From contig NZ_SMKL01000039.1 of the NCBI RefSeq assembly GCF_004348545.1, positions 1-59,058 of the forward strand: a stretch of DNA of 59,058 nucleotides, read 5' to 3'. Position 1 is the first letter of the stretch. Each line of letters starts with the position of its first letter. The stretch comes from Jiangella ureilytica. GTDB taxonomy: Bacteria > Actinomycetota > Actinomycetes > Jiangellales > Jiangellaceae. The notes below the pieces were generated by a model, which searched no databases, was not told the DNA's origin, and was given only the letters and a program-made list of their open reading frames with translations. Shown here piece after piece: positions 24,078-27,755 of this stretch. The position numbers and the translations under genes were made by a program.

Positions 24078-24854
24078 ATGGACGGCGAGCACGACGAGGA
24101 CTGGATACCGAAGCCGCGGATGCCGATACCCGCATGGGGCCACGAAGCCGCCTCGCGGGACTATCGGCTCGAGTTCACCGCAGTCACCTGTGTCCTGCGC
24201 ACGGCGAGGGCCTACGCGGGCCTGAGCCAACGCGAGCTCGCGGAGCGGTCGGGCGTGTCGCTGTCGGCGATCGTGCGGGCTGAGGCGGGTCGAACCGTCC
24301 CGTCGTGGCGCATGGTGATCACGTGTCTCGACGCCTGCCTGTTGCGGCCGGCGCTGATCGACGACGGCGACGAGCTGATCCTGGAGGCGCCGCTGGTGGT
24401 CCGCCTGAACCGAGGCCGTCGGCGCTATCCGGCCCATCTGCCGGTGTGGGAGGTCAAGCGGGCCGAGGACTGGTGGGACGGCACCCTCAGCCGGCGCGTC
24501 CCGGTCGTGCCGCCAGAGCTGATCCCGCCGTTCAGCTTCCGCCGCCGGCACCCGGACGACCAGGGCAGGGCGCGATGGGAGCGCGACCATCGCGATGAGC
24601 CCGTCCCGCACCGGCCACTGGTCCGCGCGTCCGCATCGCAGGGCGCGGAAGGGCGAGCTATGCTGACGGCGAGCCGTCGACTCCGGCCGGGAGAGTTCTC
24701 GCACCACCCGGGGTGCGAGACGCCGAAGGGGCAACATCCCCGTCAACCTCTCAGGCAGCAAGGACCGGTCGGGCGAGGCCACTCTGAAGCCGTCACACCG
24801 GCGACGACAGAGGGGGAGCCGACTCGCACCTACCGCGTCCGAGGAGCTCCGCCG
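24078..24854 (+). CDS. XRE-type HTH protein, frame open into gcvP
   Basis: A Cro/CI-type HTH is visible at about residues 38-92 ([24 protein letters not shown]), then a basic region with KRAEDWWDG and [13 protein letters not shown] do not recognise the rest. There is no stop codon in this frame before the gcvP ATG at 24855, and the glycine riboswitch (24689-24787) is read through in frame. The end given here is therefore a boundary, not a stop. Either the gene has lost its stop, or an HTH-GcvP fusion of 1225 residues can be made from the longer mRNA. CCGAAC/GTTCGG (24051-24069) just before the ATG is a candidate autoregulatory site. Confidence 0.6.
24689..24787 (+). ncRNA. Glycine riboswitch controlling gcvP
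   Basis: One aptamer matching the glycine riboswitch consensus: GGGAGAGT opening P1, a GC hairpin (CTCGCACC/GGTGCGAG), ACGCCGAAGGGGCAA, CTCTCAGGCAGCAAGGACCG and closing ACTCTG. Downstream CCGTCACACCGGCG and GAGGGGGAGCC may be the ghost aptamer and expression platform. A TATGCT -10 candidate lies at 24659-24664. It ends about 68 bases before the gcvP ATG. Glycine binding is expected to switch gcvP on, as for other gcv riboswitches. Confidence 0.88.
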
Positions 24855-27755
24855 ATGTCCCTGTCCCAGCCGCTGTCGCACGTAGCCAGCGAGGCACCCT
24901 TCGTCTCCCGGCACATCGGGCCGCGCGACGAAGAGATCGCGAAGATGCTCGACGCCGTCGGGTACGAGTCGCTCGACGCGCTGGTCGAGGCCGCCGTACC
25001 CGACGCCATCCGCAATCTCGGCGCGCTCGACCTGCCGCCGGCCAGCACCGAGACCGAGGCGCTCGACGAGCTGCGGGCACTGTCGCGGCGCAACCGGCGG
25101 CACGCGCAGATGATCGGCTTGGGCTACCACGACACCGTCACGCCGCCGGTGGTCGTGCGCCGCGTGCTCGAGAGCCCGGCCTGGTACACCGCCTACACGC
25201 CGTACCAGCCGGAGATCTCGCAGGGGCGGCTCGAGGCGCTGCTGAACTTCCAGACCATGGTGTCCGACCTCGCCGGGCTGCCCACGGCCAACGCCAGCCT
25301 GCTCGACGAGGCCACCGCGGCCGCCGAGGCCATGACGCTGATGCGCCGGTCGGTGCCTCGCCGAGACACGCTGCTCAGTCGAGGCGGCGAATCGGCCAGC
25401 ACGACCAGCAACACCGTCGTCGTCGACGCCGACTGCCTGCCGCAGACCATCGCCGTCATCCGGACCCGGGCCGAGCCGCTGGGCATCGACGTCGTGGTCG
25501 CCGATCTCGACGGGGGCCTGCCGGACGGCGACCTCTTCGGCCTGGTCGTGCAGTATCCCGGCGCGTCCGGCCGGATCCGCGACCTCACCCCGGTGGTGAC
25601 GGCCGCGCACGAGCGGGGCGCGCTGGTCACCGTCGCCTCCGACCTGCTCGCGTTGACGCTGCTCACGCCGCCGGGAGAGGTGGGCGCCGACGTCGTCGTC
25701 GGGTCGTCGCAGCGCTTCGGCGTGCCGCTCGGGTACGGCGGCCCGCACGCCGGGTACATGGCCGTGCGCGCCGGGCTGGAGCGTGGCCTGCCCGGCCGGC
25801 TGGTCGGCGTCTCGAAGGACACCCACGGCGCGCAGGCGTACCGGCTCGCGCTGCAGACCCGCGAGCAGCACATCCGCCGCGAGAAGGCGACCTCGAACAT
25901 CTGCACCGCGCAGGTGCTGCTCGCCGTCGTCGCGTCGATGTACGCCGTCTGGCACGGCCCCGAGGGGCTGCGCGAGATCGCCGAGCGGGTGCACGGCCAC
26001 GCGACGGGCCTCGCCGCGGCGCTGCGGGCCGGCGGCGTCGAGGTCGTCCACGACGCGTTCTTCGACACCGTCCTGGCCCGGGTGCCGGGGCGCGCCTCCG
26101 CCGTCGTCGCCGACGCCGCCGAGCTGGGGGTCAACCTCGGCCCGGCCGGCGTCGACGAGGTCCGCATCGCCTGCGACGAGGTCACCACCGACGCCGACAT
26201 CGAACGGGTGCTGCGTGCGTTCGGGCTGTCGGCGACCGCGACGACGGCCGCCGTCGCGATCCCCGAGCAGCTGCGCCGGCACAGCCCGTACCTCACCCAC
26301 CCGGTCTTCAACACGCACCGCTCCGAGACGTCGATGCTGCGCTACCTGCGCAAGCTCGCCGACAAGGACTACGCGCTCGACCGCGGCATGATCCCGCTCG
26401 GCTCGTGCACCATGAAGCTCAACGCCGCGACCGAGATGGAGCCGATCACCTGGCCCGGGTTCGCCGGCATCCACCCGTTCGTGCCGGTCGAGCAGGCCGA
26501 CGGCTACCTCGCCCTGATCCGCCAGCTCGAGGGGTGGCTGGCGACGGTGACGGGGTACGACGCCGTCTCGATCCAGCCCAACGCCGGGTCGCAGGGCGAA
26601 CTGGCCGGGCTGCTGGCCATCCGCGCCTTCCACCGCGCAGGCGGCGACGAGCAGCGCGACGTCTGCCTCATCCCGTCCAGCGCGCACGGCACCAACGCGG
26701 CCTCGGCGGTCATGGCCGGCATGCGGGTCGTGGTGGTCGCGGCGGCCGGCGACGGCACCGTCGACCTCGACGACCTGCGGGCGAAGATTGACGAGCACGG
26801 CGACCGGCTCGCCGCGATCATGGTCACCTACCCGTCCACGCACGGGGTGTACGAAGAGGGCATCACCGAGATCGCCTCGCTGGTGCACGCCGCCGGCGGC
26901 CAGGTGTACGTCGACGGCGCCAACCTCAACGCCCTGGTCGGGCTGGCCAAGCCGGGCGAGTTCGGCGCCGACGTCAGCCACCTCAACCTGCACAAGACGT
27001 TCTGCATCCCGCACGGCGGCGGCGGTCCCGGCGTCGGGCCCATCGGCGTGCGGTCGCACCTGACGCCGTTCCTGCCGAACCACCCGCTGCTGCCCGAGGC
27101 CGGCCCGGCCACCGGCGTCGGGCCGATCGCGGCGGCGCCGTTCGGGTCAGCGTCGATCCTGCCCATCCCATGGGCCTACATCCGGATGATGGGGCCGGCC
27201 GGGCTCAAGCTGGCCACCCAGACGGCCGTCCTGAACGCGAACTACATGGCCGTGCGGCTGCGCGACCACTTCCCGGTGCTCTACACCGGCCGCGGCGGGC
27301 TGGTGGCGCACGAGTGCATCGTCGACCTGCGCCCGCTCACCAAGGCGACCGGCATCACCGTCGACGACGTCGCCAAGCGGCTCATCGACTACGGCTTCCA
27401 CGCGCCGACGATGTCGTTCCCGGTCGCCGGCACGCTGATGATCGAGCCGACGGAGTCCGAGGACAAGACCGAGCTGGACCGGTTCTGCGACGCCATGATC
27501 GCGATCCGGGCCGAGGCCGACCGCGTCGCCGCCGGCGAGTGGCCCGCCGACGACAACCCGCTGGTCAACGCGCCGCACACGGCCGCATCGGTGGTCGCCG
27601 AGTGGGCGCACCCGTACGAGCGCGAGACCGCGGTGTACCCGTCGCCGTCGGCCCGCGAGGACAAGTACTGGCCGCCGGTGGGCCGCATCGACGGGGCCTA
27701 CGGCGATCGCCACCTGGTCTGCTCGTGCCCGTCGCCGGAGGCGTTCGAGGACTGA
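24855..27755 (+). CDS. gcvP: Glycine dehydrogenase (decarboxylating), P protein
   Basis: Single-chain PLP enzyme of 966 residues that decarboxylates glycine and transfers the aminomethyl group to lipoylated GcvH. It opens with [17 protein letters not shown]. Both halves of the dimer-like fold are present, and the PLP-binding lysine is K714 in [18 protein letters not shown]. The ATG at 24855 has GAGGAG upstream (24841-24846). The same frame is open upstream through the riboswitch into an HTH gene. Its position corresponds to Rv1832 (gcvB). A short GAAA-loop hairpin follows the stop. Confidence 0.96.

Follow-up and report, generated by a model that had tools for sequence, protein, structure and literature searches.

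In the 59,058-nucleotide stretch of Jiangella ureilytica DNA that was analyzed here (the window), a gene for an XRE-type helix-turn-helix (HTH) regulator has no stop codon of its own and continues in frame through the glycine riboswitch leader of gcvP into gcvP itself. The stop is missing and the frame is open in this species and in a second Jiangella species; the HTH core is constrained between the two, and the riboswitch, the Shine-Dalgarno (SD) sequence, and the gcvP start are intact. Probably, the HTH gene lost its stop codon in front of a leader that was open by chance, in which case a regulator-enzyme fusion would be a tolerated by-product and free GcvP would be supplied by the separate riboswitch unit.

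One open frame spans the HTH gene, the riboswitch, and gcvP

The preliminary description of this DNA had claimed that the HTH gene, the riboswitch, and gcvP share one frame without a stop codon. Translation with table 11 confirmed this: from the ATG at 24078 to the TGA at 27753-27755 there are 1225 codons and no internal stop, and the stop-to-stop extent of the frame is 1307 codons. Profile matches on the window translation placed the HTH_31 domain and GcvP in the same reading frame, which spans the XRE-type HTH gene and gcvP together with the riboswitch at 24678-24777. The features concerned are the following (window coordinates).

24078..24587, + strand: HTH gene, 170-codon core ending in RWERD (HTH_31 match, six orthologues, aligned ATG, dN/dS)
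24588..24590, + strand: site of the missing stop, CAT in the window genome (G000) and GAG in G001 (alignment)
24588..24854, + strand: open linker frame of 89 codons that holds the riboswitch leader of gcvP; not conserved as protein
24624..24664, + strand: promoter-like stretch, CGCGCGTCCGCATCGC (24624-24639) and TATGCT (24659-24664) (alignment by eye)
24678..24777, + strand: glycine riboswitch aptamer RF00504 (59.6 bits, E 7.8e-10)
24815..24850, + strand: predicted SD-hiding hairpin, GGAGC (24815-24819) with GCTCC (24846-24850) and CTCG (24823-24826) with CGAG (24840-24843)
24841..24846, + strand: gcvP SD sequence GAGGAG, 8 nt before the ATG, invariant in 12/12 genomes
24855..27755, + strand: gcvP, glycine dehydrogenase (P-protein), 966 aa, with its own start codon (TIGR00461, PF02347, PF21478)

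The encoded P-protein is a full-length equivalog of TIGR00461 (1373.8 bits against a cut-off of 859.2, residues 19-958), and in a comparison with solved structures it matched known P-proteins. The minus strand carries an open frame of 1050 codons antisense to the HTH gene and gcvP (window 23931-27083), which is most likely a by-product of GC-rich codon usage.

The HTH gene has lost its stop codon in two Jiangella species

The HTH protein matched HTH_31 at residues 39-95 (E 2.7e-12, 47.3 bits, Pfam cut-off 27) and HTH_3 with 31.9 bits (cut-off 23), which identifies it as an XRE-type HTH regulator, while no NCBIfam model reached its cut-off. Among solved structures the HTH profile matched HTH proteins only, the best being the HigA antitoxin 6af3 (E 2.1e-6).

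A family search covered 22 genomes, 12 of them of the genus Jiangella. The HTH gene precedes gcvP in six of the 12 (G000, G001, G002, G008, G009, and G010), and other sequence lies before gcvP in the remaining six; in G004 and G011 the preceding gene is presumably MerR-like. In all four orthologous loci compared (G001, G002, G008, G010) the DNA upstream of the HTH gene is common as well. The other five HTH orthologues are 54-89% identical to the window protein. As the start ATG is aligned in 6/6 orthologues, a shift of the start codon was ruled out, and all six proteins share the C-terminus RWERD/N, one with an extra P. Directly behind it, TGA follows in G002, G008, and G010, and CCA and then TGA in G009. 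The HTH gene thus keeps its own stop in four of the six orthologues and lacks it only in G000 and G001, both of which are stop-free from the HTH gene into gcvP. This is the pattern of a gene fusion by stop loss, with a stop in the outgroup orthologues, none in the derived pair, and a frame open into gcvP. The preliminary description had regarded relatives with an HTH stop ahead of the riboswitch as speaking against a read-through fusion; G001 upholds the open frame, but most orthologues (4/6) end in TGA before the riboswitch.

A sequencing or assembly artefact might be suspected, as the draft assembly of the window genome consists of 168 contigs, but G001, a single-contig assembly, likewise has no HTH stop before gcvP and carries other bases at the site. 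Because the open frame recurs there, it is not an error of one assembly; sequencing error was rejected as the cause of the missing stop, and we regard an artefact of either kind as extremely improbable.

In a tree from an 840-nt piece of gcvP, G000 and G001 grouped together with support of 85/87, which is moderate and below star level; G001 is likely the sister of the window genome. One shared stop loss is not proven, because the bases at the lost stop differ (CAT and GAG). If the stop was lost twice independently, neutrality would be harder to argue, and part of the constraint on the HTH gene may predate the loss. In G002, one of the four orthologues with a stop, the HTH gene is out of frame with gcvP. 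It lies in the gcvP frame in 5/6 species, three of those five with stops in between, where 1/3 would be expected, a weak hint in species that are related. Behind the HTH stop and within 240 nt of gcvP, one further in-frame TGA is present in G008 and two each in G009 and G010.

The HTH core was compared between G000 and G001 over 151 codons, from WGH to RWERD. Differences were found at 25 of 121 synonymous and 16 of 332 nonsynonymous sites, giving a dN/dS of 0.205 (Fisher p 1.3e-6) at a dS of about 0.24; across the 15 orthologue pairs dN/dS ranged from 0.205 to 0.467. The core is free of frameshifts in both species. This substitution pattern indicates that the HTH core is under purifying selection between G000 and G001, and the HTH protein seems to be kept.

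Just upstream of the HTH gene, the window contains imperfect palindromic units at 23720-23935, with a pair of direct repeats of 89 nt that share 91% identity and consist of inverted repeats arranged around GCGGTCGGTTGTGACGGCAGACCTC. This 25-mer occurs in three exact copies there and, with three mismatches, at four more places in the genome; the units are possibly REP-like. Closer to the gene, at 23988-24025, lie two boxes of the form NNGTCCACA, 29 nt apart. Both boxes match in G008, G002, G009, and G010; in G000 the first alone matches and the second reads TTGTCCCCA, and in G001 neither passes the pattern. The boxes could be operator sites of the HTH protein, and we also take them to resemble actinobacterial DnaA boxes.

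The gcvP leader carries a conserved riboswitch unit

The sequence CGCGCGTCCGCATCGC is similar in 10 of the 12 Jiangella genomes and weak in G006 and G003, and the candidate -10 element TATGCT is present in 12/12, whatever gene lies upstream. From this conservation we infer that the TATGCT stretch is the promoter of the gcvP unit; a sigma-70 consensus scan made no call at this stretch, which is weak evidence in a high-GC actinobacterium. The RF00504 score exceeds the gathering score of 32, making the element a member of the glycine riboswitch family, and RF00504 matched in 20/20 family gcvP loci scanned (a 21st locus, L051, was left out). At the window gcvP there is a single aptamer match, and the sequence 3′ of the aptamer is conserved in 12/12. 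One aptamer match was obtained in each of the 20 family loci scanned, whereas two were obtained in G044 and G287, where tandem glycine-aptamer matches precede gcvP (L076, 1309-1505; L075, 1283-1476).

In a consensus fold of the 12 sequences, the nine pairs of the downstream hairpin are kept in 12/12; all are invariant and therefore give no covariation proof of the hairpin. As modeled, it can hide the gcvP SD sequence. The TATGCT box, the aptamer core, the SD hairpin, and the gcvP start are thus found in 12/12 genomes, with or without the HTH gene upstream. The suggestion in the preliminary description that a short riboswitch mRNA gives GcvP alone fits this arrangement, since such a product could come from the TATGCT box, the riboswitch, and the SD sequence before gcvP.

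Open leaders are common, but the missing stop is unusual

When the 240 nt before gcvP were read in all three frames of the 12 genomes, 13 of the 36 readings had no stop; since the genomes are related and hence not independent, this count and the 5/6 given above are descriptive only. In the gcvP frame the 240-nt leader is open in 3/12 genomes (G000, G001, and G004). In G004, 846 nt upstream of gcvP are open, and the upstream gene is unrelated, lies in another frame, and has its own stop, which marks this open stretch as an accident. With a 1/3 chance of the right frame and 13/36 of an open leader, roughly one in eight stop losses would produce an open fusion.

A class-wide search for gcvP in 296 genomes gave matches in 279, and frame lengths were taken from the best 150 of the matches. 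Of these 150 frames, measured from stop to stop, 140 were 945 aa or longer, 31 were 1040 aa or longer, and 4 were 1200 aa or longer; the four longest among the matches listed belong to G000, G001, G004, and G054, three of the four in Jiangella. The upstream sequence of G004 and of further loci with long frames (G054, G050, G287, G044, and G122) was inspected by eye. In G004, G054, G287, and G044 an upstream gene, which we take to be MerR-like, has its own stop and is not read in the gcvP frame; the upstream frame of G122 looks like a gene, likewise differs from the gcvP frame, and ends in a stop; and in the upstream sequence of G050 no gene was recognized in the gcvP frame. Widespread read-through from an upstream gene into gcvP was therefore rejected for the class on the six long-frame loci inspected.

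Chance openness had been named in the preliminary description as the plain alternative. It accounts well for the linker, the openness of which is unsurprising, but the missing stop of a conserved upstream gene goes beyond it: what stands out is not the ordinary openness but that a constrained gene has no stop in two species. The leader could also be open by chance with no fusion being made, if the HTH gene were little expressed or its mRNA ended in the leader, where ribosomes would reach an mRNA end that lacks a stop and be rescued by trans-translation, with the gene on its way out. The frequency of open leaders would suit such a state, as would the absence of the HTH gene from the site in 6/12 genomes, two of which (G003 and G006) have a 47-51% identical homologue elsewhere in the genome. 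We nevertheless consider it doubtful, as the dN/dS of 0.205, the unbroken core in either species, and the kept start codon argue against a decaying gene, and a consensus scan of 23560-25000 detected no terminator-like site at which the mRNA could end.

The linker does not look like protein

When aligned with its counterpart in G001, the linker loses phase over 133 of 240 aligned nt, namely 24610-24705 (96 nt) and 24796-24832 (37 nt). The gaps between G000 and G001 measure 17, 7, 2, and 1 nt (27 nt in all), and no single gap is divisible by three. GC contents at the three codon positions (GC1/2/3) are 0.80/0.64/0.71 in the linker and 0.80/0.68/0.72 in that of G001, compared to 0.74/0.54/0.90 in the HTH gene and 0.74/0.49/0.95 in gcvP. 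The linker GC3 is non-coding and resembles that of leaders lying behind a stop (G008, 0.67; G010, 0.67; G009, 0.73). The linker does not resemble an evolved protein: its alignment is out of phase, its GC3 is non-coding, and what the 12 genomes have in common here are the TATGCT box, the aptamer, and the SD hairpin. A search with the linker "protein" gave matches in 31 of 40 genomes, many only at query residues ~176-259 or in the HTH domain; a conserved linker peptide was rejected on this basis, as the matches near residues 176-259 are translated riboswitch DNA. A linker conserved in frame, as in a selected multidomain protein, was thus not found, and the joining stretch looks accidental rather than selected.

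These data also bear on a selected regulator-enzyme fusion, in which GcvP would carry its own DNA-binding domain and serve the glycine pathway as a trigger enzyme, that is, an enzyme doubling as a regulator, with ribosomes overriding the riboswitch and the riboswitch unit supplying GcvP alone. Such a protein would explain why two species lack the stop and still show purifying selection on the HTH core, why the frame is retained over non-triplet indels in both carriers, and why 5/6 HTH genes lie in the gcvP frame. It would not lead one to expect a linker of non-coding composition that is not conserved as protein or a stop in 4/6 orthologues, and a leader often open by chance would let about one stop loss in eight cause a fusion anyway. 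The selected fusion has little support and is in our view improbable. The retained openness despite several frame-breaking indels counts against stop loss with a chance-open leader; selection would also give this result, and the chance of frame retention is about 1/3. Taken together, the interpretation offered in the preliminary description holds in part: the shared open frame and the possible GcvP-alone unit stand, and linker conservation and the stops in relatives speak against it.

Proposed course of events and its implications

According to stop loss with a chance-open leader, the XRE-type HTH gene would have lost its own stop in the lineage of G000 and G001, and because the gcvP leader by chance held no stop in the gcvP frame, the HTH gene now ends at the gcvP stop. 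Free GcvP would be made from the promoter within the leader, with glycine acting at the level of translation. Transcription from the HTH promoter would run across the leader, and since neither a stop nor a terminator-like site lies between the HTH gene and gcvP, ribosomes that finish the HTH part on a continuous mRNA would go on to make an HTH-linker-GcvP fusion of ~1225 residues, presumably melting the aptamer and the SD hairpin as they pass. From the code alone, this fusion is expected if the HTH mRNA reaches gcvP, and most likely it would be a tolerated by-product rather than a selected bifunctional protein. A stronger version would have the HTH protein exist only as HTH-linker-GcvP, with a working aptamer inside its codons: translation would melt the switch and the SD hairpin, the long mRNA would escape glycine control while the short one obeys it, and the fused domain would let GcvP act on transcription. 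This version strikes us as highly unlikely.

If the fusion is made, it would show in nature that ribosomes can translate a riboswitch and continue into the gene under its control, and that a regulator gene can persist with no stop codon of its own. Jiangella species with the stop kept and lost form a natural pair for studying how bacterial gene fusions begin and whether a translational riboswitch can be overridden by translation from upstream. If it is not made, the case warns that GC-rich RNA leaders are easily spanned by long open frames.

Comparison with known systems

A literature search for Jiangella and the glycine cleavage system found no paper, and among the matches listed for riboswitches combined with an upstream frame, readthrough, or in-frame fusion, no title names this arrangement. 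Judged from the sequence, the putative HTH-GcvP fusion would resemble trigger enzymes in joining a DNA-binding domain to a metabolic enzyme. The switch itself resembles the glycine riboswitches (RF00504) of actinobacterial gcvP genes, with the aptamer directly before gcvP, and in this comparison nothing unusual was seen in it; the one unusual feature is the frame in which the upstream gene lies. Streptomyces lividans gcvP is listed with a glycine riboswitch in the excerpted text of PMC8079986. Riboswitches of Actinobacteria tend to prefer a translational mechanism according to an excerpt of PMC6944388, and the predicted SD-hiding hairpin of Jiangella fits such a mechanism.

In Mycobacterium tuberculosis, the excerpted parts of PMC11260477 describe uORFs of uPPE2-PPE2 and metE that lie in B12 riboswitch leaders, where translation in the leader was shown by experiment to control the downstream gene; a minor uORF-PPE2′-LacZ fusion arose by frameshift in a reporter construct. 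Those uORFs are short and act mainly by termination-reinitiation at an overlap, whereas the Jiangella frame, as read from the sequence, is a full conserved regulator gene that has no stop and continues directly in frame into a glycine switch. Here too, ribosomes may cross the riboswitch leader, as the frame permits it.

For yeast, PMC4494051 as excerpted reports stop-codon losses leading to C-terminal extensions and gene fusion; one putative case in frame into the next gene was excluded there as a likely assembly error. Jiangella shares with these cases outgroups that keep the ancestral stop and a derived allele that reads into formerly non-coding sequence. The yeast cases are polymorphisms, whereas here the difference lies between bacterial species, is present in two assemblies, and places a riboswitch inside the added stretch.
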